DNA from: a virus
Strand: one strand, 5' to 3'
Length of the DNA: 38,017 bases
IMG/VR virus record: IMGVR_UViG_3300031857_000549
Coordinates: 1 to 38,017 of that record
The position numbers and the translations under genes were made by a program. Below the pieces are notes generated by a model. The model saw only the letters and a list, made by a program, of their open reading frames with translations. It was not told the DNA's origin and ran no database searches. Shown here one piece after another: positions 8,322-38,017 of this stretch (position 1 is the first letter of the stretch; the number at the start of each line of letters is the position of its first letter).

Positions 8322-8473
8322 AACAGCTTTTTGAAAACATCAAGACAAGTTTATTCGGTGCAGTTGCAGGACTTCCTCTTTTAGTAGAAGGTATCTTAAA
8401 TAAAGATTGGCATAAAGCCTTAGAAGGATTAGGCATTCTTCTGATTGGTATTTTTGCTAAAGATGCCAAGTGA
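8318..8473 (+). CDS. Small holin or antiholin-like membrane protein, 51 aa
   Basis: The gene is ATGA-coupled to the preceding holin-like gene and overlaps the endolysin start by 11 bases. The 51-residue product has a hydrophobic helix at about 12-27 (LFGAVAGLPLLVEGI), a short charged turn (NKDWHKA) and a second helix at about 35-47 (LEGLGILLIGIF). That is a two-helix class II holin layout. Together with the gene before it, it may form a holin/antiholin pair. Confidence 0.65.
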   Translation: MKQLFENIKTSLFGAVAGLPLLVEGILNKDWHKALEGLGILLIGIFAKDAK

Positions 8474-9988: not shown

Positions 9989-10173
9989 TACCTAAAAAAT
10001 TTTTCAAGATGACCGTACAAGAGCAAGAGGTTTATTTAGTACAAAAGCTAACAGAGATATACGAGAAAGAAAAAGTAATAAAGAGGGCACTTGCAAAGGT
10101 TAGAGGAAAGAATAAAATAGAACCAATAGATATAGATAGACCAGATTTATTAGAGTTAAAAGGTGAGAATTAA
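9985..10173 (+). CDS. Hypothetical protein, 62 aa
   Basis: ATGA-coupled to the exonuclease. The product is mostly one helix with many charged residues (TEIYEKEKVIKRALAKVRG) and an Asp/Pro-rich C-terminus. There is no recognised family. It lies between the exonuclease and the zincin-like protein. In the right-hand copy of this module the phosphoesterase is followed directly by the zincin, so this gene is not part of the conserved pair. Confidence 0.5.
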   Translation: MIPKKFFKMTVQEQEVYLVQKLTEIYEKEKVIKRALAKVRGKNKIEPIDIDRPDLLELKGEN

Positions 10174-10432
10174 AGTCAAATACAAAAAACTTGGAAAGCA
10201 TCAGGCTTGGGGCTTAGCAGATAGTGCTGGATTTGTAGAGATTGACGAACGGCTAAAAGGAAAGAAGGCTTTGGAGATATTAGTACATGAGTGTTTGCAC
10301 TTGTTGTTTACAGAGGCTAGTGAGGAGGAGATAGTAAAAAAATCAGTAACTTTAACTAATACGCTCTGGCATGAAAAGTATAGAAGGATAGACGATAAAG
10401 AAGGTCAGAGGCTACAAGATGGTTCACTATGA
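10163..10432 (+). CDS. Mini-zincin, HExxH protein (89 aa)
   Basis: It starts with GTG inside the end of the previous gene. The product begins with strands (MRIKVKYKKLGKHQAWGLA), then EIDERLKGKKALEILVHECL. The HECLH motif is an HExxH zinc site on a helix, followed by a Glu-rich helix (EASEEEIVKKS) that could supply a third ligand. At 89 residues it is far smaller than most metallopeptidases and may be a minimal peptidase or a zinc-stabilised domain. A homologue with about 60% visual identity lies at 36451, also downstream of a protein with the same N-terminal module. Confidence 0.65.
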   Translation: MRIKVKYKKLGKHQAWGLADSAGFVEIDERLKGKKALEILVHECLHLLFTEASEEEIVKKSVTLTNTLWHEKYRRIDDKEGQRLQDGSL

Positions 10433-14554: not shown

Positions 14555-14585
14555 TTTGTTATTATTAAAAATAGGTTTATATTTG
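14555..14585 (+). promoter_or_regulatory. Bacteroidota-type promoter of the small-gene block
   Basis: TTTG at 14555-14558, 19 bases, then TATATTTG at 14578-14585, with ATG 21 bases further on. This is the best match in the window to the Bacteroidota housekeeping promoter (TTTG and TAnnTTTG). The 15-mer ATAGGTTTATATTTG is identical to that at 1197-1211. Confidence 0.65.
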
Positions 14586-14606
14586 TATAAACAAAACCAC
14601 AACACA

Positions 14607-14804
14607 ATGAACACACAAAAGAGACTTTCAGAACTTAGGAATCAGTTAGAGGAAATTTACGCAGTAATGCCAGAAACATTTTTTGACCAGCAACAAAGAG
14701 ACAAATCTGCTTTTTTAATTTCAAAAGAGATTGAGAAATTAGAGAACCCAGAATCCTATGCTTTAAATAGCAACCATTGGGATAACCACGAAATTCGTTT
14801 ATAA
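14607..14804 (+). CDS. Hypothetical small helical protein, 65 aa
   Basis: First gene of the block behind the 14555 promoter. I use ATG 14607, because an earlier in-frame start would lie inside the promoter. The product is charged and helical (KRLSELRNQLEEIYAV and FLISKEIEKLENPE), perhaps forming a two-helix bundle. No family is recognised. Its leader AAAACCACAACACAATGAA (14593-14611) is repeated exactly before the next gene. Confidence 0.6.
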   Translation: MNTQKRLSELRNQLEEIYAVMPETFFDQQQRDKSAFLISKEIEKLENPESYALNSNHWDNHEIRL

Positions 14805-14835
14805 CTAAACAAGGGTGCAGCATCCTAACAACTGC
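14803..14835 (+). repeat. Intergenic repeat element, copy 1
   Basis: About 33 bases beginning AACTAAACAAGGG and ending CATCCTAACAACTGC, starting within the stop codon region of the gene at 14607. TGCAG and CTGCA can pair around an 11-base loop. A near-identical element occurs at 15128, after the next gene. Confidence 0.6.
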
Positions 14836-14852
14836 AATAAAACCACAACACA

Positions 14853-15128
14853 ATGAAACCTATAAACATTTTAGATATCCCTTTTTTTAATTCACAAGAA
14901 CAATTTGAAAGGAATAGGGAAATGGCAGAATCAAATAAATATGAACATTGTCCCTGCTGCGGTAAAGCAATTAAAAACCCTAAATATTTTATCAATAGTA
15001 TTTATGGTGGTTGTATGTATCCTAAAAATGACAAGAGCCAATACAATGATGCTTGGGTTATAGGAATAGGTTCTGAATGCAGAAAAAAAATACCAGTAGA
15101 ATACGTAATGACAAAAGAAGAATTATAA
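14853..15128 (+). CDS. Small protein with CPCC zinc-knuckle, 91 aa
   Basis: The 91-residue product has an N-terminal helical part, then HCPCCGKAI (about 33-41). Two further Cys lie downstream (GGCMYP and GSECRKK), enough for one zinc site of the type C-x2-C...C. AWVIGIGSECRKKIP is distinctive but not assigned to a family. It is preceded by the same 19-base leader as the gene at 14607 and followed by repeat copy 2. Confidence 0.6.
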   Translation: MKPINILDIPFFNSQEQFERNREMAESNKYEHCPCCGKAIKNPKYFINSIYGGCMYPKNDKSQYNDAWVIGIGSECRKKIPVEYVMTKEEL

Positions 15129-24276: not shown

Positions 24277-25239
24277 ATGGCATTTGACGTATCAGCACTT
24301 GCAAACTATACCGAGCAGAATGAAGCTCTGCTGGTTACTAGTTCTGTTTTGGGTGCAAAAACTGCATCTCTGATTAAGAGTGCAGGTAACGTGATGGTAG
24401 GAGTTAAGTCTGCTGAAACCATCAATATCATGGATACAGACGCTATCTTCCAGAGCGGTGGTTCTTGTGGCTTTAACGCTTCAGGTTCAACTAGCTTTAC
24501 TCAGCGTACTGTTACTATCGGAAAGATTAAAGTAAATGAGGCTCTCTGCCCTAAAGACTTGGAATCTAAGTATCTCCAGAAGGCACTTCCTACTGGCTCT
24601 ATGTACGATGCGATTCCTTTCGAGCAAGAGTTTACCGATAAGAAAGCTAAGAAAATCGCAGCTCAACTTGAGACCGCTTTGTGGCAAGGTGATACTGCTT
24701 CTGGTAACGTTAACCTAAATAAGTTCGATGGCTTGGTTAAGCTTATCGGAGCTGCTTCTGGTGTAGTAGATGCTAACGTATCTGCTTACGTTTCTGGTGC
24801 TCCTATCTCTTCTGCAACAGGTATTACTGCTGCTAACGTAATCGCTATCTTTGATGGTGTTTACAGGGCTATCCCTGCTCAGATTGTTTCTGAAGATGAT
24901 GTAACTATCTTCTGCGGTATGGATGTATTCCGTACTTATACTATCGCTCTGAAGAACGCTAATATGTTCCACTATCAATTTGATGGTAAAGCTGACTCCG
25001 AATTCTACTTGCCAGGTACTAGCGTTAAAGTTATCGCTGTACAAGGTTTGAACGGAACTAGCAAGATTTACGCAGCTCGTCTTTCTAACTTGTTCTTGGG
25101 TACTGACCTTTTGAACGAAGAAGAGAAATTTGAAATCTTCTACGCAAAAGAAGCAGACCAAGTACGTTTTGTTTCTGAGTTCAAGATGGGTGTAAACTTT
25201 GCCTTCCCTGACGAAGTAGTTAAGTTTGTCCTTTCTTAA
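24277..25239 (+). CDS. Major capsid protein
   Basis: The 320-residue product has HK97-like features by position and composition: acidic, single copy, directly after protease and scaffold, and followed by a strong terminator. Recognisable segments are MAFDVSALANYTEQNEALL and VTIGKIKVNEALCPKDLESKY, then FEQEFTDKKAKKIAAQLETA, as in Bacteroidota phage capsids. Codon use differs from its neighbours (many GCT, GGT, ATC, TTC codons), as expected for very high expression. It forms the icosahedral shell. Confidence 0.85.
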   Translation: MAFDVSALANYTEQNEALLVTSSVLGAKTASLIKSAGNVMVGVKSAETINIMDTDAIFQSGGSCGFNASGSTSFTQRTVTIGKIKVNEALCPKDLESKYLQKALPTGSMYDAIPFEQEFTDKKAKKIAAQLETALWQGDTASGNVNLNKFDGLVKLIGAASGVVDANVSAYVSGAPISSATGITAANVIAIFDGVYRAIPAQIVSEDDVTIFCGMDVFRTYTIALKNANMFHYQFDGKADSEFYLPGTSVKVIAVQGLNGTSKIYAARLSNLFLGTDLLNEEEKFEIFYAKEADQVRFVSEFKMGVNFAFPDEVVKFVLS

Positions 25240-25244
25240 TATAA

Positions 25245-25273
25245 TAGGGGGTGAAATATCCCCCTACTTTTTT
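25245..25273 (+). terminator. Rho-independent terminator after the capsid gene
   Basis: TAGGGGG (25245-25251) pairs with CCCCCTA (25260-25266), with an 8-base loop, followed by C and a T run. It would keep capsid mRNA levels apart from those of the following genes. Confidence 0.75.
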
Positions 25274-25293
25274 AAACTTGTAAATTAATTAAT

Positions 25294-25806
25294 ATGCCGT
25301 GTGCACTAACTCAAGGATATGTTCTGGACTGTAAAGACTCTCTCGGTGGTATAACCGAAGTGTACTTTATGGCACTACAGGATGTAGCTTCTACGACAGA
25401 GGCTTCTGGTGTTATCACTGCACTTACTAAAGATGCTGGAAAGCGTTTCTACAAGTATGAACTCGTAAAAGAGACATCATCTTTTGTAGAGAACGTTAAT
25501 GCTTCTGTAGAGAACGGAAGTATCTTTTATCAGCAGGAGTTGACTGTTATCCTGAATAAACTTCAGGCTAATACTAGGAATGAAATTCTGCTCCTTGCTA
25601 AGAATCTTTTAGTAGCTGTAGTTGGTGATAACAATGGTAAGTACTGGTATCTCGGACAAACTAGAGGTTTAGATATTTCTGGTGGTTCTGCTCAGAGCGG
25701 TGCTGCTATGGGTGATAGAAGCGGATATAGTTTGACATTTACTGCGAAAGAGCCTTCTCTTGCTCCAGAGGTTGCTTCTGGTGTGATTGCTGGCTTGACT
25801 AGTTAA
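25294..25806 (+). CDS. Major tail tube protein candidate
   Basis: The 170-residue product is strand-rich. It has the same highly expressed codon style as the capsid gene and sits between two strong terminators, consistent with an abundant virion protein. RFYKYELVKETSSFVENVNA and IFYQQELTVILNKLQANTRN resemble tube-forming tail proteins, and GRDISGG-like LDISGGSAQSGAAMGDRSGY leads into a last strand. An alternative is a capsid decoration protein. I favour the tube because no other gene fits that role. Confidence 0.65.
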   Translation: MPCALTQGYVLDCKDSLGGITEVYFMALQDVASTTEASGVITALTKDAGKRFYKYELVKETSSFVENVNASVENGSIFYQQELTVILNKLQANTRNEILLLAKNLLVAVVGDNNGKYWYLGQTRGLDISGGSAQSGAAMGDRSGYSLTFTAKEPSLAPEVASGVIAGLTS

Positions 25807-25828
25807 ACTAGCAGTTGATTTTTAAGAA

Positions 25829-25859
25829 ATGCCTTCGCAAGAGCGAGGGCATTTTTTTT
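25829..25859 (+). terminator. Rho-independent terminator after the tail tube gene
   Basis: Ten-base stem ATGCCTTCGC (25829-25838) with GCGAGGGCAT (25843-25852), with one T-G pair. The loop is AAGA, followed by eight T. Very strong. A start codon for the next gene upstream of this hairpin is therefore unlikely. Confidence 0.85.
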
Positions 25860-25892
25860 GATAATAAACGCTCTTTCTGGCATTTATTAGAG

Positions 25893-26267
25893 ATGATACA
25901 GCTTACTAAAGGTCAGACGCAGTATATATATCTAACGCTAACGGAGAAGCAGACCTTAGCTACTCCTAACTATTTATTTGTGTTCAAAAATAGGAGCACT
26001 AATTTAGAGGTAAAATTCGTACTATTGTATGCAGCGGATGTATCATCCTATAAAGATAGATACAATAAGTTTAGCCTTAACGTAAATAAGTACTTTAGCT
26101 CTAAGCCGAGAGGACAATATATATATAATGTTTATCAGCAGAGCTCAACATCTAACACAGATGTAACAGGATTAACGGAGCTAGAGAGTGGGATAATGTG
26201 GCTAAACGATGAAGAGGTAGTATATACTGAATATCAGACTACGGATACCTATAAAATTAGACAATGA
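25893..26267 (+). CDS. Virion-associated protein, 124 aa
   Basis: I place the start at ATG 25893 (MIQLTKGQTQYIYLTLTEKQ), since the longer frame would begin before the terminator hairpin. The product looks like an Ig-like or strand-rich domain with many Tyr and Thr residues, similar in style to the N-terminal parts of baseplate or fibre-attachment proteins. It is ATGA-coupled to the portal gene. No secure family. Confidence 0.55.
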   Translation: MIQLTKGQTQYIYLTLTEKQTLATPNYLFVFKNRSTNLEVKFVLLYAADVSSYKDRYNKFSLNVNKYFSSKPRGQYIYNVYQQSSTSNTDVTGLTELESGIMWLNDEEVVYTEYQTTDTYKIRQ

Positions 26268-28030
26268 TTAACGCAGATTCATTTATACTAGTACAGTTTG
26301 CAGAGGCTAAGCAGCCAGAGTATCGTGAGAAAAAGGGTGAAGGATATATGCAATATGGGGATAAGAATGACTATCCTAATTATTTAGTTGACCTTTTTAA
26401 CAAGTCGGCTAAACATAACGCTATAGTAAGAAATAAAGTGCACTATATCTGCGGTAATGGGTGGAGCGGTAACGAGCAGTTTATTTCTAAGCCTAATAGA
26501 AGCGAGGATTTAAACGAGTTGACTAGAAAGATATCTTTGGATATTGAGCTCTTTGGTGGGGCTTATATTGAGGTTATATGGGGTTTAGATAGGGTAGCTG
26601 AGATGTGGCATATCGATTATACTAAAATCAGGACTAATAAAGACAATACTCAGTTTTGGTATAAGGAGGATTGGAAGGATTTAAAGAAAAAAGATTACAC
26701 GGTTTACCCTTCGTTTAACCCGAATAACAAACAGGGCAAGCAGATATACTATCTGAAGGAATATAGACCTAATGGCGGGGTTTATTCTCTTCCTGTGTAC
26801 TTTGGTGCTCTTAATTATATTGAGAGCGATGTAGAGGTTTCTAAGCACGTTCTAGGCAATGCAAAGACAGGCTTCTCTGCTAGTAAGTTAATCACTCTTC
26901 CAGATGGAGTACCTTCAAGGGAAGAGCAGAACGAGATTCATAGGAAATTTAAGAATACCTATACAGGTGCGGATGGCATTAAGTATATGCTATCTTTTGT
27001 TAATGACTCGACTAGAAAGCCTATTATAGACGATTTAGGGCAGTCGGATTTAACTAAGGAAGATTTCGGTAGGGTGGATACGCTTATTCAAACTAACATC
27101 TTCTCTGGACATCAAGTTACTACTCCTAGTATTTTCGGTATTGCGGTAGCTGGTCAGCTAGGCACTAGGACAGAAATGAGGGATGGATATGAGATTTTCA
27201 AGAATACTTACGTTAATGGTAAGCAAATGTTCCTTGAGAGTTTTGTAGATATGATGTCTGCTTATTTTGGTTATGCTGGGGAGTATAGAATTATACCTAC
27301 AGAGCCTATCGGAATAGAGTTAAGCGAGGCTACACTTTTACAAATAGCACCAAGAGAATACTTACTCGAGAAGGCTGGTATTGATTTAACTAAATACGTT
27401 AAGGAGCAACCTAGTCAATTCTCTGAAGATTATTCTTTTTTTTCGGAGTACGGAGAAAGCAAGGATAACTACGAGGTATGGAAGCAGAAGAGTTATTTTG
27501 AGGATGTAGAGTTATTCGCTGATGTTACCCAGCTACAATCTAATGTACTTGATTTAATATCTAAGGACAAAAGAATTACTCCAGAGGTAGTAGCCGAAAC
27601 ACTTAAAGAGGATATAGGAGTTATTAAAAGGATATTTAAAGTCCTAGAAGATAAAGGTTTTTTAAAGGTATCTGAGACGAGTATAGGAAAAGGAGATGAT
27701 AAAAATATCATTATAGAAAGACAACTAACAGAGCCTTTAAAAGATATCGTAGAAAAAATAAAGCCAAAGACTACGGAGTTTTTGATTAGATATAGTTATG
27801 AGTGGAGAGCAGGATTTAGTCAAGCCGATATTGGCACATCTAGAGAGTTTTGTAAATACTTACTAAAAGAGAATAAGTTTTATTCTAGAAGTGATATTGA
27901 GCAGATGAGTGCAAGACTAGGATATTCTGTTTGGGATAGAAGAGGTGGCTGGTACACAAACCCAGATACAGATAGGACTACTCCTTTTTGTAGGCACGAG
28001 TGGAAGAGCAACGTAGTAACTAGAAAATAA
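26264..28030 (+). CDS. Portal protein with C-terminal winged-helix and MuF-like end
   Basis: The 588-residue product begins with a portal domain. AKHNAIVRNKVHYICGNGW and LDIELFGGAYIEVIWG match the clip/stem start of portal proteins. ASKLITLPDGVPSREEQNEI, and later SIFGIAVAGQLGTRTEMRDG, belong to the PBSX-type portal core (to about 380). Beyond it there is a segment like a winged helix at about 415-480 (LDLISKDKRITPEVVAETLK, then GVIKRIFKVLEDKGFLKV). The end reads RRGGWYT, then PFCRHEW, as in minor head proteins. It forms the DNA channel at the capsid vertex. The gene stands after capsid and tail tube, not beside the terminase. Confidence 0.78.
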   Translation: MINADSFILVQFAEAKQPEYREKKGEGYMQYGDKNDYPNYLVDLFNKSAKHNAIVRNKVHYICGNGWSGNEQFISKPNRSEDLNELTRKISLDIELFGGAYIEVIWGLDRVAEMWHIDYTKIRTNKDNTQFWYKEDWKDLKKKDYTVYPSFNPNNKQGKQIYYLKEYRPNGGVYSLPVYFGALNYIESDVEVSKHVLGNAKTGFSASKLITLPDGVPSREEQNEIHRKFKNTYTGADGIKYMLSFVNDSTRKPIIDDLGQSDLTKEDFGRVDTLIQTNIFSGHQVTTPSIFGIAVAGQLGTRTEMRDGYEIFKNTYVNGKQMFLESFVDMMSAYFGYAGEYRIIPTEPIGIELSEATLLQIAPREYLLEKAGIDLTKYVKEQPSQFSEDYSFFSEYGESKDNYEVWKQKSYFEDVELFADVTQLQSNVLDLISKDKRITPEVVAETLKEDIGVIKRIFKVLEDKGFLKVSETSIGKGDDKNIIIERQLTEPLKDIVEKIKPKTTEFLIRYSYEWRAGFSQADIGTSREFCKYLLKENKFYSRSDIEQMSARLGYSVWDRRGGWYTNPDTDRTTPFCRHEWKSNVVTRK

Positions 28031-28036
28031 AATAAG

Positions 28037-28624
28037 ATGAGCCTTAATATATTATTTATATCAGTAGAGACCATAAAAGACAGGACAGGTCTGCATAATA
28101 ACGTAGATGAGAAACTAATTATGCCTGAGATTAAAACAGCTCAGGATATGTACATTCTCCCAGCGTTAGGAACGGCTCTTTACAATAGATTACAAGAGGG
28201 TGTAGAGTGCGGTAATTTGAACTGTGATGAGAAAACCCTTTTAGATGATTATGTAGTGGACTGCTTGACTAACTATGTCTTAAGCGAACTTCCCCAAGGA
28301 TTGTCTTATCAGTTTTATAACAAAGGTTTAGTTAGAAAAAGCTCAGATAATACAGAGCTTCCTTCTATGCAAGACCTTATAGATATAGCTAACAGATACA
28401 AGGCTAGAGCAGAGTTTTACAAGCAGAGGTTAATCAAATACCTGAAGCAGAACTCTACTCTATACCCAGACTACTTAAACTTTGGTGCTGGCTACGATGC
28501 CATAAAACCAGAGAACGATGGATATACTGCTTCTATATGGCTGGATGACCCATTCTGCTGTAAAGGAGAAAAGATATTTAGAGACCTCTATCAGGGCTCG
28601 AATCCCCCCTGTTGTTATGATTAA
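28037..28624 (+). CDS. Head-tail connector protein candidate (DUF6712-like)
   Basis: The 195-residue product is mostly helical, with TAQDMYILPALGTALYNRLQ and LLDDYVVDCLTNYVLSELPQ. This pattern is typical of head-tail connector (adaptor) proteins of Bacteroidota phages following the portal. The C-terminal end is Cys-rich (DPFCCKG and PPCCYD), which may form disulphides or bind metal. Six bases separate it from the portal gene. Confidence 0.65.
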   Translation: MSLNILFISVETIKDRTGLHNNVDEKLIMPEIKTAQDMYILPALGTALYNRLQEGVECGNLNCDEKTLLDDYVVDCLTNYVLSELPQGLSYQFYNKGLVRKSSDNTELPSMQDLIDIANRYKARAEFYKQRLIKYLKQNSTLYPDYLNFGAGYDAIKPENDGYTASIWLDDPFCCKGEKIFRDLYQGSNPPCCYD

Positions 28625-28627
28625 ACT

Positions 28628-28750
28628 ATGAGTAAGAAAGCAAACCTTAAAAACCAAGAGAAACTAAAAGTTTATCTAAGTAAAAAGAATGACATTAAAT
28701 CAAATCATATCGCAGATAAAAAGCTACGGAACAAGTCATCCTCAAATTAA
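28628..28750 (+). CDS. Possible 40-aa basic peptide
   Basis: A short frame gives MSKKANLKNQEKLKVYLSKK and further basic residues. It fills the gap after the connector gene but its last 62 bases overlap the start of the next gene in another frame. It may be a genuine mini gene or simply an open stretch. I report it with low confidence. Confidence 0.3.
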   Translation: MSKKANLKNQEKLKVYLSKKNDIKSNHIADKKLRNKSSSN

Positions 28751-29108
28751 CTACGTTTTATTTGGGGAGTTTTCCGATAAGCTAGATGATGAGGATGTAA
28801 CTTATCCTGCTATGTTTATTGATTTGCAAAGTGCTAACTTCCTTTCTAAGCAATTATCCTACACTTTTAACATTTATCTATTAGACAGGCATCTGCAAGA
28901 AACGGATGCTTTAGAGGTGTTAAGTGATATGAGCCTAGTAGCTGAGGATATTGTAGCAAGACTGCGTACTCCTTCTAATACTTGGGTAACAGATGATAAC
29001 ATAGCTGTAACGTTTTTTAGAGAAGCAGAGCCTGACTTCCTAGCAGGAGTTCGAATAGATGCTACGCTGACTCTTCCATCACTTAATAATAGATGTCAAA
29101 TACCATGA
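28689..29108 (+). CDS. Tail completion / terminator-like protein
   Basis: The 139-residue product has an N-terminal helix (MTLNQIISQIKSYGTSHPQI), strands with FGEFSDKLDDEDVTYPAMFI, then FNIYLLDRHLQETDALEVLS and a helix (SLVAEDIVARLR). This alternation resembles small tail-terminator and completion proteins of siphoviruses that cap the tail tube. It is four bases overlapped with the following gene. Confidence 0.6.
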   Translation: MTLNQIISQIKSYGTSHPQINYVLFGEFSDKLDDEDVTYPAMFIDLQSANFLSKQLSYTFNIYLLDRHLQETDALEVLSDMSLVAEDIVARLRTPSNTWVTDDNIAVTFFREAEPDFLAGVRIDATLTLPSLNNRCQIP

Positions 29109-29446
29109 ATAGCGATTTTAAACCAGCCGAATTAGATATAGAAATAGTAAAGGGAGACTATTGGGTAGAGGTTTTTGCTTTAAGCCTCAATAGTACACCT
29201 ATCAACCTAACCTCACAGAATGTTGAGATAGAGATAACGCAAGGATGCTCTACTACAGTTTTATGGAGTGCTACCGCAGGGGATGGCATAACCATAACAG
29301 GAGCCAGCAATAATCAAATAAGTTTAAGCAAGCTAGTTAATCTAGATGCTGGAAACTATGAGTATGTGTTGAAGGTAACCTATACAACAGGGGTAGTAAA
29401 GACATATATCTGGGGTAACTTTGTAGTGTACGAATCTAAGCCATGA
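29105..29446 (+). CDS. Virion protein with Ig-like domain, 113 aa
   Basis: ATG 29105 overlaps the previous stop (ATGA); an in-frame ATG at 29093 would add four residues. The product is a strand-rich domain, with ELDIEIVKGDYWVEVFAL and YVLKVTYTTGVVKTYIWGNF, similar to the N-terminal domain of BppU-like baseplate proteins. It is probably part of the distal tail or fibre attachment. It overlaps the next gene by 4 bases. Confidence 0.6.
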   Translation: MNSDFKPAELDIEIVKGDYWVEVFALSLNSTPINLTSQNVEIEITQGCSTTVLWSATAGDGITITGASNNQISLSKLVNLDAGNYEYVLKVTYTTGVVKTYIWGNFVVYESKP

Positions 29447-30102
29447 GTGTAGAGATAACTTATACAGAGCAAGTAATAGACCTAACGGTAACTGAGCAAC
29501 AAGTAGATGTTAACGTTACTCAGAACCCAATAGATGTAAATGTAACTCAACAAGTAGTTGAGATTACTAGCTCTACGGGTATTAATATCAATAATGATGT
29601 TACTAATCTTGTAACGTTAGTAAGGAATCAGACAGGTGCGACTATCCCAGCTTTTAGGGTTGTTTATATTAGTGGGGCTACAGGTAATAAACCAACAATA
29701 ACTTTAGCTAGTGCGTCAGGAGAAATCTCATCAAGTAAAACTTTTGGGGTTACTGAGGCATCAATAAACAACAATCAGACAGGATATGTAGTAACTGTAG
29801 GAGAGCTACAGAATATTGATACTTCTGCATATAACGAAGGGGATTTATTATGGCTATCAACTACGGCAGGGTTTGTACAAACTACACCACCAGCAGAGCC
29901 TGCTCATGCGGTCTTTATTGGGTATGTTATTAGGTCGCATCCGAACTTTGGTGTTATTGAGGTAAGGATACAGAATGGATATGAGCTTGACGAATTACAT
30001 GGGGTTTTATGCCCAAATCCTGCGGATGGAGATGTACTTCAGTATGTCTCTTCTACAGGCTTATGGACAAAGACCTCTTCTATAAACTTTGGAACTTGGT
30101 AA
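29443..30102 (+). CDS. Tail fibre-base protein with FGTW C-terminus
   Basis: The 219-residue product starts with a repeat-like region of Val/Thr/Gln (EQVIDLTVTEQQVDVNVTQ). A fibre-type domain with TGATIPAFRVVYISGATGN and GELQNIDTSAYNEGDLLWLS follows; this domain recurs in many phage fibres. The C-terminus is SINFGTW, the same last four residues as the fragment at 3-551. The last CTAG of the window lies inside this gene (29708), so its 3' part may already belong to the sequence type of the right-hand region. Confidence 0.7.
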   Translation: MSVEITYTEQVIDLTVTEQQVDVNVTQNPIDVNVTQQVVEITSSTGININNDVTNLVTLVRNQTGATIPAFRVVYISGATGNKPTITLASASGEISSSKTFGVTEASINNNQTGYVVTVGELQNIDTSAYNEGDLLWLSTTAGFVQTTPPAEPAHAVFIGYVIRSHPNFGVIEVRIQNGYELDELHGVLCPNPADGDVLQYVSSTGLWTKTSSINFGTW

Positions 30103-30103
30103 T

Positions 30104-33100
30104 ATGGCAAATACATTAAAATTCAAAAGGGGTTTATTAGCAGGGATACCAACGGCTGCGTTGGGTGAGCCTTTGTTCACTACGGACACCTTTGACCTTT
30201 ATATAGGTAATGGAACGGGGAATACGAAGTTTCAAAAGTTCATAGCGAGTGGTGCGACTACGCAGATTATTCGTGGTGATGGGTCGCTCTATACGTTCCC
30301 ATTAGCGATTAGCAGCCCTTCAAATGGTCAAGTATTAAAGTACAATGGCACATCTTGGGTGAACGATAGCGATGCTGGTATTACGGGTAGTGGCTCTGCT
30401 GGTCAAGTTGCATACTTCACTGGTTCGACTACACAAGCGGGGGAAGCTGGTCTTACTTGGGATACAACTAATAAAAGATTAAAATTAGCATCAACTGGTG
30501 GTGGGCAATTATATTTAGAAGATACGGATGCAACATCTACTTTTAATATAACTGAGATTACTAATAACGCTGGTAATTTTAATATAGCAACAAGAAGTTC
30601 TGCTGGTGCATTTGTATCAACAGACTATCAAATTGTAAAAGACACTGCATCTTCTACTTATCATAGATGGTTTACTGCTGCGAGTACCGAAAGAATGCGA
30701 TTATTTAATACTGGCAACTTCGGTATCGGCACTGGTGCGAGTGATTCGGGGCAGAAGTTACAAGTTGTTGGTGATGCTTATATAAAAGGTAGTGGAGCAA
30801 CAAGTGGGACAAATGGATTAGTAATACAAGATAGTGCTGGTGTAAACATTTACACATTTAGGAATGATGGTCAAGCTATTTCAACCATAAGAAATGCACA
30901 AACTGAAGCATCATTAAGATTTACGCAAGTAACTGCAAATAATAATGCTGGAACAAGCATACCAATAATATGGTATGAAAATACTGCCGCTTCACAAAGA
31001 GGAGTTATTAATGGTGTTTGGGATAGCTCAAATAGGGCTGGGTTTAATTTTATTCACGGTCAAGGCACTACTGGTGTTTCTATATTGCTAAACAACCCAT
31101 CTAACCAACTTGTTGGCGGAAGTACATTTACAATAAATGAAACATTTAATCCAACAAGTGGAACTGCATTTAGAGTATTTGCAAATATTGCACCTACAAT
31201 TAACCAAACTGGTGGTGCAAATGGCATTACTTATGGTTTATCTGTTAACCCTACATTGACTGCTGCTGCTGATTGGAGGTCTATAACGTGGACAAACAAT
31301 AGTGGATGGGGGTTGTATGGTCAAGGCACTGCCAACAACTATATCAATGGCGGTTTATTTATTGGAACTACAACTACATCAACGTATAAATTAGACATTG
31401 TTGGAAATGCAAGAGTAAATGGTGTGTCAAGATTGGGTAGTGCGGTTGCAACAAATGGAGCAACAACTATTGAGCAGATTTATGTAGGCGACCAAGTGCT
31501 TGGTGTTATAAGTGCAAGACAAGGAAGTGGTGCATTATTATTAGGATATGGTGCAAAGGCTAAAAGTGGTGCAGATGGTTACATATCTACATTTGATAAT
31601 TTTAGTGCAAGAAGAGCATTGCTTGACATCAATCAAGGATACTTTGATTTTGTAAATACTGCTGCGGTTAATACTGCAATAGGTAGTGATTTAACTCCTA
31701 CTATATTAATGCGTTTAAATACAACTGGTAACCTCCTCATCGGCAGCACAACTGATTCGGGCGAGAAGCTACAAGTGACGGGGACAATGAAGGTGACTGG
31801 GCAAACTGATGTTGGAGGTAGATTAATAATAACTACAAGTTCAAATTATGCACACGGTGTAGTAAATAGTGCTGGTACTTCAGCAGCTTCTTCTTATTAT
31901 CAAAATACAAGCGGTGCATTTTATGTTGGAGTTGATAGTGCAGGTGGTGGTGCAATTAGCGGAACAACTGGTTATGCAAGATTAATTTGGGGGCAAGGTG
32001 CTTATCCATTATTATTTGCTACTAATGGAACCGAACGTATGCGTCTTGACGCATCTGGCAATCTCGGTCTGGGTGTGACTCCGAGTGCGTGGAGAAGTGC
32101 AGCTAAAGCATTTCAAGTTGGGACAACATCATCTGTTTATAATGTAGCTGACGGAACTTTTATCGGAAATAACGTTTTTAGCAATAGCACTGCAGCCGAT
32201 ATATATATAAAAAATGGACCAGCAGGGGTATATGGACAAACAAATACTGGAAGTCATATTTGGGGTGTTGCTGCATCTGGCACTGCTGGAAACGCTATCA
32301 CCTTCACCCAAGCAATGACACTTGATGCGAGTGGGAATTTAGGAATAGGAACGACAAGTCCAAGAGCAAGGTTACATACTTTATTAAATGGTAATGCTTC
32401 AAATGGTATAACTGGTACTACACTAATCGGACAAAACAGTTCAAGTGGTAATAGCAGCTATTTAACTTTGGTAGGTGCTTTTGATGCGGATGCTGGAATA
32501 GTATTTACAGATGAATCAGTTGCATATAAAGGTAGAATAGTTTATAGTAACAATAATGAATTTATGTCCTTTTGGACAGATGGCTCTGAGCGTTCAAGAA
32601 TATTCTCTACTGGTAATATTGCCATCGGCTCTACAACCGATAGCGGAGAGAAGCTCCAAGTCACTGGCACTGCGAAGATAACGGGTGCAGCCACGTTCTC
32701 AAGTAGTGTGACGGCTCAAACTGGTTTGTTTGGTGGTAATTTAGGAGGAGCTAACCAAAGAGTTGCTAACTTTAGGAATAGTGGTGGTAATGCTTTTATA
32801 GAATTGCAGTCAAGTGGTGCGGGTGCAGTCGCATTATGGGCAGCATCAGCAAATGAATTTGGTATATATCAAAATGCAACGGCTGGTACTATTGGCACAA
32901 ATGTTTTTTATATAACATCGGCTGCAAATATTGGAATAGGAACTTTTACACCATCTTATAAATTAGATGTCAATGGTACATTTGGAGCAACTGGTGCTGC
33001 CACGTTCTCGAGTAGTGTGACGGCTAATGGTAATTTATTTGTTGGCACACAAGCATTTTCAATAGATGTTGCATCAAACAGGGTTGCAATTAACAAATCA

Positions 33101-34084
33101 AGTCCAACAAGAAGATTGGATATTGGTGGAACAGTTGGTGATTTTCAGGTTTATGATTCAGGTGCAGAAGTGTATTTCACAAGAAATGCAAACAATGATA
33201 TTTATGCAGATGGTGGAACAAGTGCTGGTTTGACATTAGGTGGTAGAAGTTATCTTGCTTTTAAAACTGGTACTGCTTCACTTACCGAACGTATGCGTTT
33301 AGACGCATCGGGCAATCTTGGTATAGGTGGAACACCTGCTCAAAGACTTGATGTTCAAGGCTCTGCTAATAGCATTCAAGCACGATTTGGTAATGTAGCT
33401 GGTAGGGGATTAACCATAGGTACAAGTGCAATAAGTGGTACAAATGATGCAGGGGTGATATTTAACGCACCAACGGCTACCGATGGGACACTTATATTTC
33501 AAACTACATCTGTTGAAAGAGCAAGAATTTCTGGTAGTGGTAATTTACTTATAAATACAACATCAGATACTGGTTATAAACTTCGTGTCAACGGAACATC
33601 ATATTTTGATGATAACCTACGCTTCCCTAACTTAAAAGGTTGCGTATTCGTACAAACGGGAGGTACATTGCTTGGTAGTATTGCAATGGATAGTGCAAAC
33701 GCAGTAACCATAGATAATAATGGCTTTGCAGGGTTGAGTGTAGGTGGTTCGTACACTATGACTGGGGGTAATTTAGGAATTGGACATAGTGCTTTTGGAA
33801 CAAGTGCTACAAAGACAATATCAGTAAATAGTGGTACTGCTCCTTCTACAAGTCCTGCCGATGCCTTCCAATTATACTCCGCCGACATCACCGCTGGTAA
33901 CGCTGCTCCTCACTTTAGAACGGAGAATGGAGGAATAATTAAACTCTACCAACAGACAACGGGTGTTACAAGTGCAACATACATAGGTGGTGCGGGTACA
34001 ACAGTTACTGACCTTGACACCTTTGATGGTTATACAATTCCACAAATAGTAAAAGCACTTAGAAACGCAGGATTATTAGCTTAA
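30104..34084 (+). CDS. Large repetitive tail fibre protein, 1326 aa
   Basis: The start at ATG 30104 gives MANTLKFKRGLLAGIPTAAL, a fibre N-terminus known from many phages. TAALGEPLFTTDTFDLYIG follows. The body repeats a module with TERMRLDASGNLGIG and a second one with SGEKLQVTGTAKITGAATF, separated by variable strand-rich parts, as in trimeric beta-helical fibres. The end is LDTFDGYTIPQIVKAL. No S74 autoprotease domain is visible. Conserved repeat DNA is GC-richer than the AT-rich variable segments. CTAG is missing from the whole gene, unlike all genes left of it. It should recognise the host surface. Confidence 0.85.
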   Translation: MANTLKFKRGLLAGIPTAALGEPLFTTDTFDLYIGNGTGNTKFQKFIASGATTQIIRGDGSLYTFPLAISSPSNGQVLKYNGTSWVNDSDAGITGSGSAGQVAYFTGSTTQAGEAGLTWDTTNKRLKLASTGGGQLYLEDTDATSTFNITEITNNAGNFNIATRSSAGAFVSTDYQIVKDTASSTYHRWFTAASTERMRLFNTGNFGIGTGASDSGQKLQVVGDAYIKGSGATSGTNGLVIQDSAGVNIYTFRNDGQAISTIRNAQTEASLRFTQVTANNNAGTSIPIIWYENTAASQRGVINGVWDSSNRAGFNFIHGQGTTGVSILLNNPSNQLVGGSTFTINETFNPTSGTAFRVFANIAPTINQTGGANGITYGLSVNPTLTAAADWRSITWTNNSGWGLYGQGTANNYINGGLFIGTTTTSTYKLDIVGNARVNGVSRLGSAVATNGATTIEQIYVGDQVLGVISARQGSGALLLGYGAKAKSGADGYISTFDNFSARRALLDINQGYFDFVNTAAVNTAIGSDLTPTILMRLNTTGNLLIGSTTDSGEKLQVTGTMKVTGQTDVGGRLIITTSSNYAHGVVNSAGTSAASSYYQNTSGAFYVGVDSAGGGAISGTTGYARLIWGQGAYPLLFATNGTERMRLDASGNLGLGVTPSAWRSAAKAFQVGTTSSVYNVADGTFIGNNVFSNSTAADIYIKNGPAGVYGQTNTGSHIWGVAASGTAGNAITFTQAMTLDASGNLGIGTTSPRARLHTLLNGNASNGITGTTLIGQNSSSGNSSYLTLVGAFDADAGIVFTDESVAYKGRIVYSNNNEFMSFWTDGSERSRIFSTGNIAIGSTTDSGEKLQVTGTAKITGAATFSSSVTAQTGLFGGNLGGANQRVANFRNSGGNAFIELQSSGAGAVALWAASANEFGIYQNATAGTIGTNVFYITSAANIGIGTFTPSYKLDVNGTFGATGAATFSSSVTANGNLFVGTQAFSIDVASNRVAINKSSPTRRLDIGGTVGDFQVYDSGAEVYFTRNANNDIYADGGTSAGLTLGGRSYLAFKTGTASLTERMRLDASGNLGIGGTPAQRLDVQGSANSIQARFGNVAGRGLTIGTSAISGTNDAGVIFNAPTATDGTLIFQTTSVERARISGSGNLLINTTSDTGYKLRVNGTSYFDDNLRFPNLKGCVFVQTGGTLLGSIAMDSANAVTIDNNGFAGLSVGGSYTMTGGNLGIGHSAFGTSATKTISVNSGTAPSTSPADAFQLYSADITAGNAAPHFRTENGGIIKLYQQTTGVTSATYIGGAGTTVTDLDTFDGYTIPQIVKALRNAGLLA
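31739..33335 (+). repeat. Repeated DNA modules within the tail fibre gene
   Basis: Near-identical segments recur. About 26 bases starting CCACGTTCTC occur at 32691-32716 and 33000-33025. A segment starting ACCGAACGTATGCGT occurs near 32030 and 33284. A segment coding for (D)SGEKLQVTG occurs near 31755 and 32640. Such repeats allow unequal recombination and copy-number change of fibre modules. Confidence 0.65.
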
Positions 34085-34102
34085 TAACAAAAACAAATAA
34101 AA

Positions 34103-34381
34103 ATGTCAAAGAGTATTCAACCAGTACAAGTATGGAAAAACGGAGAAGAAAAACAAGCAAACAAATTCTCCCTTATTCTTATCAATGATGACTTAGCAAC
34201 AAACGCTAATTTTTACTATCAACTCATCTCCTCCGTTGTTGATGGAGAAAATGAGTCCTCTCAAATGGTAGCCGATGGCAACTGCGCTATGAGTGGGGAT
34301 GATTATCTCGGATGGGATGGTTCAAATGACGCGGCTTATTCATTTGTTGCGGGTAAACTAAATCTCGTAATTATTTCCTAA
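34103..34381 (+). CDS. Small fibre-associated protein, 92 aa
   Basis: The product begins MSKSIQPVQVWKNGEEKQAN and is strand-rich and acidic (GENESSQMVADGNCAMSG, then YLGWDGSNDAAYSFVAG). I recall similar small proteins after the fibre gene in phages of Flavobacteria, probably virion-associated. There is no signal or membrane helix. It has no counterpart in the left-end module. It lacks both CTAG and GATC. Confidence 0.6.
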   Translation: MSKSIQPVQVWKNGEEKQANKFSLILINDDLATNANFYYQLISSVVDGENESSQMVADGNCAMSGDDYLGWDGSNDAAYSFVAGKLNLVIIS

Positions 34382-34401
34382 ATTCGTAAAAACTTAAAAC
34401 T

Positions 34402-34539
34402 ATGGACATTAAGGAACTAAAGGCACAAGCCTATGATCTACTTGCAAACATCGAGTATTTGCAAAAACAACTTGCCGAAGTAAACCAAAAAATCGGTGAG
34501 GCAATGCAGCAATCCAATGCTGACGAAAGTAAAGCATAA
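34402..34539 (+). CDS. 45-aa coiled-coil protein, homologue of the one at 575
   Basis: The product begins MDIKELKAQAYDLL and shares most positions with the 46-residue protein at 575, including IEYLQKQLAEVNQKI. Its last 23 bases overlap the endolysin gene. The first GATC of the window lies in this gene (34435). Function unknown; the repeated position between fibre and lysis gene suggests a role in one of them. Confidence 0.7.
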   Translation: MDIKELKAQAYDLLANIEYLQKQLAEVNQKIGEAMQQSNADESKA

Positions 34540-35098
34540 GTTACCCATACAAGTGTATGATGAGTTGGTTGATGTCGCGCGTGAGTTCGACATCACCAAC
34601 CCATTTCGTATGGCGCACTTCCTTGCTCAATGCGCCCACGAGAGTGGTAACTTTAAACACGTTAGAGAAAATCTAAACTACTCCGAGCAAGGACTACTCA
34701 ATGTATTCCCAAAGTATTTTGATAAGAACACGGCTAAGTTATACGCTCGTAAGCCAGAGCAAATAGCCAACATTGTGTATGAATGTCGCTTGGGCAATGG
34801 GAATAGGAACACTGGTGATGGATGGAAATTTCGTGGCCGAGGTTTTTTGCAGTTGACCGGCCTTGTAAATTATAAGGCGTTTGGTGAATTTATAGGGGTT
34901 GACTTACTTACCAATCCCGACCTGGTGGCTACAAAGTACCCACTAACCTCTGCGGCTTGGTTCTTCCACAAGAAAGGACTTTGGAAGATATGCGATCAAG
35001 GGGTGGATGAGCCAACCATAGTGGCGGTCACCAAGCGAGTTAATGGTGGGACTAATGGGTTAGCGGATAGGATTAGCAAAACAAAAGTCTTCGTATGA
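34517..35098 (+). CDS. Endolysin, GH19 chitinase/lysozyme-like
   Basis: The 193-residue product shows the GH19 pattern. AHFLAQCAHESGNF has candidate catalytic Glu42, followed by LNYSEQGLLNVFPKYF with a second Glu nearby. Then come ARKPEQIANIVYECR and the substrate-cleft segment DGWKFRGRGFLQLTGLVNY. Phage GH19 enzymes cut the sugar backbone of peptidoglycan. I use ATG 34517; a GTG at 34496 would add seven residues. It differs in fold from the M15 endolysin at 8463, so two unrelated lysins are present in the window. Confidence 0.85.
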   Translation: MLTKVKHKLPIQVYDELVDVAREFDITNPFRMAHFLAQCAHESGNFKHVRENLNYSEQGLLNVFPKYFDKNTAKLYARKPEQIANIVYECRLGNGNRNTGDGWKFRGRGFLQLTGLVNYKAFGEFIGVDLLTNPDLVATKYPLTSAAWFFHKKGLWKICDQGVDEPTIVAVTKRVNGGTNGLADRISKTKVFV

Positions 35099-35487
35099 AA
35101 TACCTAATTATACTTATATTCCTATCCTCTTGCACCACCGAGCGATTAATAACCAAATACATCGATAGAGAGATACACGACACAACCATCATCCAAAAGG
35201 ATAAGATAGTGGTTGATCGCATCACAGATAGCATTTATTCGTGGATATACGACACCACAATAGTAGAGTACGAGCGTGTGCGTAAGGTATTGCAACCTTG
35301 TGCTGACTCAATAGTAAAAATAAACAAAGTTGTTTATACGGAACTATACAAAGACCAGTTCCACGAGGCTGAACAAAAATTAAAAAAATTAGAAGAAAAT
35401 AAACGTTGGTGGCAAAAGGGCGCACTCCTTACTTGGGGGTGGATTGGACTATTAATTTTAGTAATTATTGCAATAAAACGTAGATGA
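35095..35487 (+). CDS. Unimolecular spanin candidate, second copy
   Basis: The 130-residue product has a lipoprotein signal with lipobox FLSSC (Cys13), a Thr/Ile/Asp-rich strand-like region (REIHDTTIIQKDKIVVDRI) and a Lys/Glu helix. It ends with a membrane helix (about 108-126) and the basic KRR end. The layout and repeated DTT/IDT segments match the protein at 684, so both are homologous u-spanins. It is ATGA-coupled to the GH19 endolysin, a normal lysis arrangement. Confidence 0.72.
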   Translation: MKYLIILIFLSSCTTERLITKYIDREIHDTTIIQKDKIVVDRITDSIYSWIYDTTIVEYERVRKVLQPCADSIVKINKVVYTELYKDQFHEAEQKLKKLEENKRWWQKGALLTWGWIGLLILVIIAIKRR

Positions 35488-36467
35488 CTAAAAAAGAACT
35501 ACTCACCCAATATCGTCAAAAGTATGGGTGGGAAATCCCGACTAAAAAACTTGCTCGAATTGTCTATAAAGAGAATAGTATTCTTTTCCCTAATCTTGAG
35601 GCCGTAAGACTTGGAATAATGCGATTGGAGGGTAAAGGTATGTCAACACGTTACAAACCCATAACCAATATGCCGAACAGACCAACAAACCCCTACAACA
35701 TTCCTCAATCGTATAGTGAGGAACGTGAGCCATTTGAACTTGACAAGAAGTGTAATAACATCCTTCTTATCTCTGATTTACACATCCCCTACCACAATGT
35801 CGATGCAATTACTATTGCTTTTGAGTATGGGGTGAAAAATGGCATCAATACAATCATCATCAATGGCGATTTGATGGATTTTCACAACTTATCACGCTTT
35901 GAGAAAGACCCACGCAAACGCTCCGTAAGGGAGGAGTTTGTGTTCACCAAGCAATTCCTACAATCTTTGCGTAAAACATTCCCAAAGGCCGCTATTTATT
36001 GGCTATTGGGCAATCACGACATACGCTACCAAAAGTGGCTAATGACCAAGGTGTATGAGATTTTTGATGATGAGTATTATCACCTACACACCAGGCTAAA
36101 GATTAGCGAGGAAAATATCCAAATAATACCGGACAACGTGCTTGTCAAGGCGGGTAAGTTATCCATCACGCACGGCCATCATATAATGAAGGGTTTTTTC
36201 TCACCCGTGAACTCCGCTCGTGGAGCGTGGATGAAGGCTAAGCAAAGTGTCATAATAGGTCACGTTCATAAGGTGAGTAACCACGTTGAGGTTAACTTAG
36301 ATGGCGAGTCATTTGGGTGTTGGTCTACTGGCTCCCTTTGTGAACTCAAGCCTGACTACAACCCCCTGGTAAGTAATTACCAGCACGGATTTGCCCATAT
36401 CGTAGTGAACGATGATGGTAATTTTAGTGTTAAAAATTATCAAATTATCAATGGCAAAATACATTAA
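35484..36467 (+). CDS. Calcineurin-like metallophosphoesterase with N-terminal module
   Basis: The 327-residue product has two parts. Residues 1-50 carry KLARIVYKEN and a following AVRLGIMRLEGKG, homologous in layout to the N-terminus of the exonuclease at 8969. Residues 93-265 hold a complete phosphoesterase site: SDLHIP (Asp98, His100), NGDLMD (Asp129, Asp132), GNHD (176-179), THGHH (His230/His232) and GHVH (His260, His262). It may act on nucleic acid ends or nucleotides. It is ATGA-coupled to the spanin and directly followed by the zincin. Confidence 0.82.
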   Translation: MTKKELLTQYRQKYGWEIPTKKLARIVYKENSILFPNLEAVRLGIMRLEGKGMSTRYKPITNMPNRPTNPYNIPQSYSEEREPFELDKKCNNILLISDLHIPYHNVDAITIAFEYGVKNGINTIIINGDLMDFHNLSRFEKDPRKRSVREEFVFTKQFLQSLRKTFPKAAIYWLLGNHDIRYQKWLMTKVYEIFDDEYYHLHTRLKISEENIQIIPDNVLVKAGKLSITHGHHIMKGFFSPVNSARGAWMKAKQSVIIGHVHKVSNHVEVNLDGESFGCWSTGSLCELKPDYNPLVSNYQHGFAHIVVNDDGNFSVKNYQIINGKIH

Positions 36468-36726
36468 AGTCAAATACGCCAAATTGGGTAAGCAAAAGGC
36501 GTGGGGCATTGCCCACGGGCGTGACTACATTGAGATTGATGAACGCCTCAAAGGTCGCAAACACCTTGAAATTTTGCTTCACGAGTGTCTACATATCATA
36601 TTGCCTCAACTTGAGGAGGAGGAGGTCATAAAACAATCCGTAATACTTACCAATACGCTTTGGCGTGAATCATATCGTAGGGTGGAAGATCACGAGAATA
36701 TGCCCCTACAAGATGGAAGTAATTAG
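36451..36726 (+). CDS. Mini-zincin, HExxH protein (91 aa), second copy
   Basis: I use ATG 36451 (MAKYIKVKYAKLGKQKAWGI). The HECLH zinc motif follows RLKGRKHLEILL, and a Glu-rich helix (LEEEEVIKQS) comes next. The protein is collinear with the one at 10163 throughout, up to the end (LQDG). It overlaps the phosphoesterase gene by 17 bases in another frame. A regulator-cleaving or immunity-related peptidase role like ImmA/IrrE is conceivable, since an XRE gene follows, but unproven. Confidence 0.65.
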   Translation: MAKYIKVKYAKLGKQKAWGIAHGRDYIEIDERLKGRKHLEILLHECLHIILPQLEEEEVIKQSVILTNTLWRESYRRVEDHENMPLQDGSN

Positions 36727-36757
36727 GTCGGGTTTTCTTATATAGGCGGTTGATTAC

Positions 36758-36790
36758 GCCCTTCGTTTCTACGAGGGGCTTTCTTTCTTT
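36758..36790 (+). terminator. Rho-independent terminator after the right-hand late genes
   Basis: Nine-base stem GCCCTTCGT (36758-36766) with ACGAGGGGC (36771-36779), with one T-G pair. The loop is TTCT, followed by a T/C-rich tail. It separates lysis-side genes from the promoter at 36835. Confidence 0.72.
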
Positions 36791-36808
36791 ATGTACCTAA
36801 CTACACTT

Positions 36809-36861
36809 AATCTATAAATAAATCTATAAAAATATTTGTTTATTGTAGTTTTGTTATTGTA
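36809..36861 (+). repeat. Two pairs of direct repeats in the right-hand promoter region
   Basis: AATCTATAAA occurs at 36809-36818 and 36821-36830. TTTGTTTATTGTA (36835-36847) is repeated as TTTGTTATTGTA (36850-36861). The second pair covers the space between the -33 and -7 elements and could be an operator for the XRE protein encoded 180 bases downstream. Confidence 0.45.
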
Positions 36862-36867
36862 CATTTG
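36835..36867 (+). promoter_or_regulatory. Bacteroidota-type promoter of the right-hand early operon
   Basis: TTTG at 36835-36838, 21 bases, then TACATTTG at 36860-36867, with ATG 17 bases downstream at 36885. It lies in the only sizeable non-coding stretch of the right end (36727-36884), which otherwise holds a terminator and direct repeats. Confidence 0.6.
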
Positions 36868-36884
36868 CATATCAACAAACCTAT

Positions 36885-37049
36885 ATGAAAAGAGAACTTA
36901 CCGAACAAGAATGGATACGCGAATTTAGAGTTGGGATGTACTACATCAAACCAACCAATTACTATCCCACCGAGTGGCATATGGATTACAACCAATCCCC
37001 CCTATCACGCATTATTAATTCAATTATAAAATTCATCAAGAAATGGTAG
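36885..37049 (+). CDS. Hypothetical early protein, 54 aa
   Basis: First gene after the right-hand promoter, 54 residues, beginning MKRELTEQEWIREFRVGMYY and ending in a basic amphipathic helix (IINSIIKFIKKW). It overlaps the start of the XRE gene by 7 bases. No family recognised. Its place directly behind a promoter with suitable spacing supports coding. Confidence 0.55.
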   Translation: MKRELTEQEWIREFRVGMYYIKPTNYYPTEWHMDYNQSPLSRIINSIIKFIKKW

Positions 37050-37234
37050 AGATTAAAAAACTTAGACAAGAGAAGGGACTAACCCAAGAGAAATTGGCTC
37101 AATTAACGGGTCTTACTACGGCAACTATTAATAAAGCCGAGAACCACGGTAACATCAGACTAATCACTTATCGCACAATCATCGAAACACTTACTAACTA
37201 TGATGTACATACTAATACTCCTACTGCTGCTTAG
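37043..37234 (+). CDS. XRE-family HTH regulator, 63 aa
   Basis: The product is one HTH domain: KKLRQEKGLTQEKLAQLTGL with recognition helix TATINKAENHG and final helix YRTIIETLTNY. It likely represses its own promoter; direct repeats at 36835-36861 overlap that promoter. It is similar in fold but not closely similar in sequence to the XRE protein at 15903. Confidence 0.8.
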   Translation: MVEIKKLRQEKGLTQEKLAQLTGLTTATINKAENHGNIRLITYRTIIETLTNYDVHTNTPTAA

Positions 37235-37514
37235 TATTATCATTGGGTTGTACTTATTCGCAGAATACGAACCAATCGAAACAGAAAAATTAAGCGGTTA
37301 TGACATCCCGCGCATCTTCTACTCCGATTACAATCGCATTTGTTTGGAGATCTTCCAAATGACTAAAGAGTCAAGCGATAAGGTAATGCACGAGATATAC
37401 TCCTTTGAAGATAAGTATTCTCAAATAGTCGAACACAAAGCCTACCACGAGGCGGTTGCAATGCTCCTTGAAACATATCGTAAGCGTTATTTTTTTCTTA
37501 ACTATAATAAATAA
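37200..37514 (+). CDS. Membrane-anchored small protein, 104 aa
   Basis: The product starts with a hydrophobic helix (about 3-21: ILILLLLLSIIIGLYLF), probably an uncleaved anchor, followed by a polar helical domain with EIYSFEDKYSQIVEHKAYHE. No Cys lipobox. It overlaps the XRE gene by 35 bases. Could be an early host-membrane-directed protein; function unknown. Confidence 0.6.
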   Translation: MMYILILLLLLSIIIGLYLFAEYEPIETEKLSGYDIPRIFYSDYNRICLEIFQMTKESSDKVMHEIYSFEDKYSQIVEHKAYHEAVAMLLETYRKRYFFLNYNK

Positions 37515-37519
37515 ACAAA

Positions 37520-38017
37520 ATGGGACTACAAGAAAGTCAAACACAAAATGGAGGGATTACATTCCTATCCGTTAGCAATGGTAAGTTCGTTCGTAGAGTT
37601 GACGAAGGCACACCAAACGCAGTGTCACGAGTCAACAAAGTCGGTAAGACTGTACACGAACTATTTTACACCTCACTCATTGGTCACATCAAAGAAGTGA
37701 CAACTAAGGAGAGTGAGTATGGTAAGTTTTGGGTGGTTAAGGTCAAATCACCGGCCAATGACCAAGTATACCAGTTCGAGATGAACTACTCAAGTGGGTA
37801 TGCGACATCTTTTCTCAAGGCACTACCAAACGTAAACCTCGACATCAACGTTGAGATTTCACCCGCCATCGTCAAAAAAGATGACAAAAGCCAAAGTGTT
37901 ATCTTCCTTCGCCAAGATGGTCAAGCGGTCAAGCACTTCTTCACCAAGGCTACACCCAATGGTATGCCTGACCTTGAGCAAATTAAGGTCAAAGGCAAAA
38001 TAACCTGGGATGACACC
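37520..38017 (+). CDS. Replication-associated ssDNA-binding-like protein (3' truncated)
   Basis: The frame opens at ATG 37520 and runs to the window edge: 166 codons, no stop. It starts MGLQESQTQNGGITFLSV and contains DEGTPNAVSRVNKVGKTVHE and YQFEMNYSSGYATSFLKALP, then HFFTKATPNGMPDLEQIKVK. I recognise this as a conserved early protein of Bacteroidota phages encoded among replication genes. Strand-rich composition suggests an OB-like ssDNA-binding fold, not proven. It would be the beginning of a replication operon comparable in place to that at 1228, but with a different first gene. Confidence 0.6.
   Translation, partial: MGLQESQTQNGGITFLSVSNGKFVRRVDEGTPNAVSRVNKVGKTVHELFYTSLIGHIKEVTTKESEYGKFWVVKVKSPANDQVYQFEMNYSSGYATSFLKALPNVNLDINVEISPAIVKKDDKSQSVIFLRQDGQAVKHFFTKATPNGMPDLEQIKVKGKITWDDT

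Follow-up and report, generated by a model that had tools for sequence, protein, structure and literature searches.

The 38,017-nucleotide stretch analysed here (the window; positions 1 to 38,017 of the linear IMG/VR virus record IMGVR_UViG_3300031857_000549) carries two sets of lysis and early genes, which raises the question of whether it represents the genome of one phage or pieces of two. The first-pass annotation had proposed a junction between two related phage genomes at the tail-fibre locus, and offered either a natural recombinant or an assembly chimera as its origin. We consider the chimera to be the better reading, given that both constituents, here called phage A and phage B, are each complete and separate in their relatives. 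Based on these comparisons, the record is very probably an assembly chimera of two phages, which most likely come from Bacteroidota-type bacteria. The parts of the window assigned below all lie on the + strand.

Searches of IMG/VR with the portal and ERF sequences returned over 100 loci, and by comparison with these, positions 1 to ~30.1 kb can be assigned to a near-complete phage A. The nearest complete A relative, G007 (IMG/VR 3300032322_000290), comprises 33,052 bp with a 123-bp end repeat, and other A relatives with end repeats measure 31.2-34.1 kb. The backbone at 1,228-30,102, recognised by its terminase and portal profiles, encodes ERF-like, DnaA-like and RNase H-like proteins, an endolysin that the first-pass annotation labelled M15, and zincin, terminase, tail, capsid, portal and collar proteins; 53 proteins of the window are found in G007 in the same circular order. 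G007 is likewise CTAG-rich and without GATC or GCGC, but is a distinct species, its A-type terminase, portal and capsid being 67%, 70% and 83% identical, respectively, to those of the window. Part of the backbone, together with the start of the following gene (25,018-30,215), is 100% identical (5198/5198) to L002, an independent contig of the A group that stops at 30,215. Among GenBank phages, only Nonlabens phages P12024S/L have a similar portal (25% identical over 55% in P12024S), and the closest named phages by terminase are Halorubrum and Thermus phages, with matches of only 30-34%.

In A relatives, the portal, collar, fibre, g34103, second fibre, coiled coil, spanin and ERF genes follow one another in one circle. 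The order g34103, second fibre, coiled coil and spanin after the fibre is seen in G007, L010 and L098, and is followed by ERF in G007 and L098, while L010 ends before ERF. The window begins within this order. Positions 1-551 hold the 3′ end of the second tail-fibre gene of phage A, cut by the contig start (open frame 3-551, with homology to the second fibre of A relatives, four CTAG sites and an A-type signature); a coiled-coil ORF of 46 aa (575-715) precedes the spanin, as it does in A relatives; and a spanin-like lipoprotein (684-1,154) was assigned from its position and its lipobox-like N-terminal start, with homologues that precede ERF in A relatives. Since base 1 lies inside the second fibre and A relatives close in this order, base 1 would be the cut point of a ~31-34-kb circle, and fibre sequence should precede it. 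The earlier suggestion that a ~30-kb phage closes on base 1 is therefore supported by the G007 circle, in which the second fibre is followed by coiled coil, spanin and ERF. What G007 carries between the end of its first fibre and the beginning of its second is missing next to the A part of the window. As a whole, the record departs from the ~31-35-kb circle with single lysis and early modules that is typical of the A group, as it measures 38,017 bp, has doubled modules, and showed no end repeat when one was looked for; the A-group order holds for 1-30.1 kb.

Several observations concern the A group more broadly. A 297-bp stretch at 14,562-14,857, after the terminase in the window, is 92.6% identical to L098:1927-2220, where it lies just before ERF, and is possibly a small mobile or shared element. 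In L269:13327-15282 (G022), an A-like terminase is interrupted in frame by ~250 aa that resemble an intein and include a LAGLIDADG domain. The A-type terminase occurs twice, 31.3 kb apart, in G014 (IMGVR_UViG_3300043436_001856, 63,203 bp), which is probably the dimeric record of a single ~31-kb genome. Finally, an A-type capsid that is 60% identical lies in a bacterial chromosome contig of Chitinophaga polysaccharea (L277:10001-10954; 515-kb contig), and two more A-type capsid matches in a Chitinophagaceae MAG provide a host lead.

The phosphoesterase and GH19 searches yielded 24 further contigs, and on comparison with these, the right part of the window, from at most ~33.8 kb to 38,017, can be attributed to a phage B whose backbone is unrelated to that of A. 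One of its relatives, L082 (IMG/VR 3300025889_000904), shows 81-82% DNA identity over 34,379-38,017. The fibre end, g34103 and coiled coil (33,794-34,499) stand in B order with no second fibre between, and are collinear with L152 (71% over 723 columns), L146, L148 and L150. This stretch reaches into the 45-aa coiled-coil ORF (34,402-34,539; 88% identical to L082 and 72-83% to most other GH19 loci), after which come a GH19 endolysin (34,496-35,098; Pfam PF00182, PHROG 181; 89% to L082), a spanin-like lipoprotein (35,095-35,487; 73% to L082), a metallophosphoesterase with an N-terminal domain (35,484-36,467; PF00149; 89% to L082), a mini-zincin (36,451-36,726), and an XRE regulator, g37200 and g37520 (37,043-38,017; 82%, 76% and 98% to L082), the last of which is cut by the contig end. 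Most GH19 loci read fibre, g34103, coil, GH19 and spanin, B relatives place holin and collar before these, and the window follows the B-group order fibre, g34103, coil, GH19, spanin and zincin over 33,794-38,017. L082 shares the order g34103, coil, GH19 and spanin and has no CTAG, but differs from the window in that a second fibre separates g34103 from the coil; in the majority of the other B relatives, an RNase H-like enzyme stands where the window has the phosphoesterase. In an exact-pattern scan for the same B strain, a 25-mer from the B part of the window found no match, and the sole match of a 23-mer from the fibre N-terminus was L002.

A complete example of the B group is provided by G029 (IMG/VR 3300032288_001608; 34,061 bp with a 123-bp end repeat), and B relatives measure ~34 kb. 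The B terminase is separate (23-28% identical to that of A), and no A-type capsid or portal was found in B relatives. Membership of the B group (L082, G029-G037) entails a B-type terminase and structural module, whereas the only structural module in the window is A-type. The view that the right part is a relative of the left thus holds for the fibre region and scattered modules, which are shared, and fails for the structural module. A search for either half alone, a check named in the first-pass annotation, returned complete genomes of relatives of both A (G007) and B (G029), each with a 123-bp end repeat.

The genes that had been paired between the two parts were scored by alignment against shuffles. 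The coiled coils at 575 and 34,402 (29/39 identical, z 22) and the mini-zincins at 10,163-10,432 and 36,451-36,726 (54/86 identical, z 52) are indeed related, as are the two XRE regulators (z 11.5), though theirs is a generic fold. The pairing of the enzymes at 8,969 and 35,484 stands only for a weak match of their N-domains (z 5.3 over the first 90 aa), as the enzyme domains differ, one being RNase H-like and the other a metallophosphoesterase. The spanins at 684 and 35,095 gave z 1.6, with no detectable homology in the shuffle-tested alignment, so that what had been taken for a related pair shares position only. The endolysins at 8,445 (M15, by its earlier label) and 34,496 (GH19 by Pfam) are unrelated, as previously described.

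The first-pass annotation had also pointed to the loss of CTAG at 29.7 kb. The counts are correct: CTAG occurs 189 times in 1-29,711, for the last time at 29,708, and is absent from 29,712-38,017, although between 20 (Markov) and 30 (independent bases) sites would be expected there. The edge does not, however, mark a change of genome, and we ruled it out as the joint, because the fibres of natural CTAG-rich A relatives lack CTAG too. In L007, CTAG falls from 4.59/kb outside the fibre gene to 0.26/kb inside, in L015 from 6.60/kb to 0, and the fibre of the complete G007 is likewise CTAG-poor and the remainder CTAG-rich. A further signature change, absent from the first-pass annotation, is the switch in GATC, CGCG, GCGC, GGCC and CCGG, all of which are absent from the first 29.7 kb and present again from 34,284 onward. 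By its restriction words, the window is thus of A type as far as 29.7 kb and of B type from 34.28 kb onward.

The tail-fibre gene that holds the joint (30,105-34,084) is without CTAG, CATG, GATC, CGCG, GCGC, GGCC and CCGG. Judged from the flanking assignments, the joint lies within 30.09-33.8 kb. It would thus run through fibre sequence, as had been proposed, but inside the fibre gene rather than at the CTAG edge at 29.7 kb or at 34.4 kb. We ruled out a joint at ~34.1-34.4 kb, where GATC and GCGC return, because B fibres are poor in both and 33,794-34,499 is collinear with B. Codon usage was uninformative for placing the joint, as most of the fibres of relatives, including the longer one of L082, look A-like. 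A count of diagnostic sites in the fibre N-terminus was also abandoned, since it gave a mixture of A and B and assigned at least one row of B (L223) to A; a tree was used instead, and in it the A and B rows of 30,102-30,480 are intermixed.

Our best guess for the joint zone is the N-terminal, Mtd_N-like module of the fibre (30,090-30,480), which is common to the A and B families, with homology to B loci from 30,102. Relatives of A and B have exact fibre runs of 143-200 bp in common, which in several pairs begin at the fibre start; in the N-terminus of the fibre, such runs between other A and B phages reach 185-200 bp. The length of contig end repeats usually reflects the word length that the assembler used, and the repeats of A and B contigs measure 97-127 bases, while L002 ends 126 bases past 30,089. 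If the word length was ~123-127 and L002 ends at a fork of the graph, we infer that the shared sequence starts near 30,089-30,093, shortly ahead of the fibre gene, whose first base is 30,105. Another A contig, L013, ends at the fibre start too. The joint most likely falls at 30.09-30.22 kb, and possibly further inside the fibre, as the middle of the fibre finds its nearest pieces in A relatives (89% to L010 for 31,325-31,803) as well as in B relatives. A scan with a fibre segment that is rarely matched elsewhere gave three matches, in other and longer contigs. Several short A contigs (L013, L094, L006 and L039) have an end within or close to fibre DNA that is also found in B, a pattern that might be expected if assemblies frequently broke at this place.

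Sharing of fibre DNA between the two groups is well supported as the outcome of exchange. Exact DNA common with B occurs in 12 of the 14 loci of the CTAG-rich A subgroup and in L039, vs 0 of 12 genomes of two other A clades, and in the loci examined it is confined to the fibre region, as far as the coiled coil. Fibre DNA is also 91-98% shared between phages with different capsid and portal genes. This pattern fits fibre genes moving between both groups.

The window is alone among its relatives in having two zincins, two coils, two spanins, an RNase H plus a phosphoesterase, and M15 plus GH19 endolysins; not one of the 21 relatives that are complete or nearly so (28.9-35.8 kb) combines the two sets of lysis and early modules. 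As a chimera would have it, each half has a separate, complete genome among its relatives (G007 and G029). We envisage a single sample that contained both phage A, a relative of G007 of ~31-34 kb, and phage B, a ~34-kb relative of L082 and G029, and in whose assembly graph the conserved fibre module common to both probably formed a branch. The contig would then have run from the collar gene of A through the shared fibre into the fibre end, lysis and early genes of B, instead of into the second fibre of A and back to base 1. The join would thus have been made in software, not in a cell; the A/B joint is probably not a real feature, and the shared fibre gene is real.

Alternatively, recombination in the fibre gene could have brought the fibre end and the lysis and early genes of B into a phage A genome, which would then carry two early and lysis sets. 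Such an origin is conceivable, as fibre modules are exchanged between both groups and single modules (phosphoesterase, GH19) occur in A-type backbones, but we regard this as unlikely: exchange in relatives replaces modules rather than doubling them, and the window, at 38.0 kb and cut at both ends, already exceeds the 28.9-35.8 kb of all relatives checked. With the remainder of the early genes of B, estimated from L082 at about 11.7 kb up to where the terminase begins, the genome would reach about 50 kb, probably too large for the capsids of ~31-35-kb phages. Still less probable is an arrangement of two adjacent prophages, or of a phage cointegrate, in a single host DNA molecule. The capsid gene in the Chitinophaga contig indicates that at least distant relatives of A can integrate, but the searches made identified neither a host gene nor an integrase gene between A and B, the join falls within a single open fibre frame, and the record begins inside a fibre gene, as a cut circle would. 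That one genuine phage carries two diverged paralogous lysis and early modules is scarcely credible, for although the coil and zincin pairs are truly homologous, the right genes are 73-98% identical to another phage (L082), the left genes belong to the G007 group, the palindrome signatures of the two parts are opposite, and no relative among the 21 has both sets.

The chimeric reading leaves the fibre itself as a genuine gene, and its palindromes may bear on where such fibres have been. Words were counted against synonymous-codon shuffles, with fibres chosen by composition and length; the P values treat sites as independent despite related sequences, and clades were grouped after the counts had been seen. 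In the CTAG-rich A subgroup, CTAG stands at 1.46 of expectation outside fibres and 0.25 inside, and in B the corresponding values are 0.99 vs 0.32 for GCGC, 0.33 vs 0 for CGCG and 0.51 vs 0.26 for GATC. Controls are provided by the two other A clades, though only for words that these do not avoid in the first place, CTAG being rare throughout both. In one (G008-13), GATC was 1.05 outside vs 0.97 inside and CATG 1.09 vs 1.24; in the other (G016-20), GCGC was 1.87 vs 1.88 and CGCG 1.25 vs 1.66, while GATC fell from 0.48 to 0.17 (nominal P 0.029). AGCT was mildly lower in the fibres of all four groups. The fibre at 30,105-34,084 and those of L007, L010, L015, G007 and G029-G037 contain few of the words that, at genome level, are rare in the other group alone (CTAG in A fibres; GCGC, CGCG and GATC in B fibres), and these are just the two groups that share fibre DNA. 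We lean, by a little, towards the view that fibres circulate between groups that differ in their restriction-word vocabularies and bear the avoidance pattern of each, as a record of the restriction regimes, and perhaps the hosts, that they have passed through; word avoidance would here be a trace of restriction.

Taken at face value, the record would describe a phage that has two lysis systems and whose genome size is foreign to its group, and would tie B-group lysis and early genes to an A-group capsid in viral databases. Recently swapped fibre genes are a likely weak spot at which short-read assemblies may join different phages. If the double palindrome avoidance holds in other phages, it would offer a sequence-only readout of the restriction regimes through which a receptor-binding gene has passed; a limited literature search found no description of it in shared fibres. 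The window resembles short-read metagenome chimeras that arise from shared repeats, in that the join lies in a conserved gene, the linear record is longer than complete relatives, and single-copy genes are doubled; it differs in having been recognised by comparison alone. The horizontal exchange of tail-fibre modules is known in general, and as in those cases, fibre DNA is shared here despite different capsid and portal genes. What sets the present fibres apart from that known exchange is that they also carry the palindrome avoidance of both groups.
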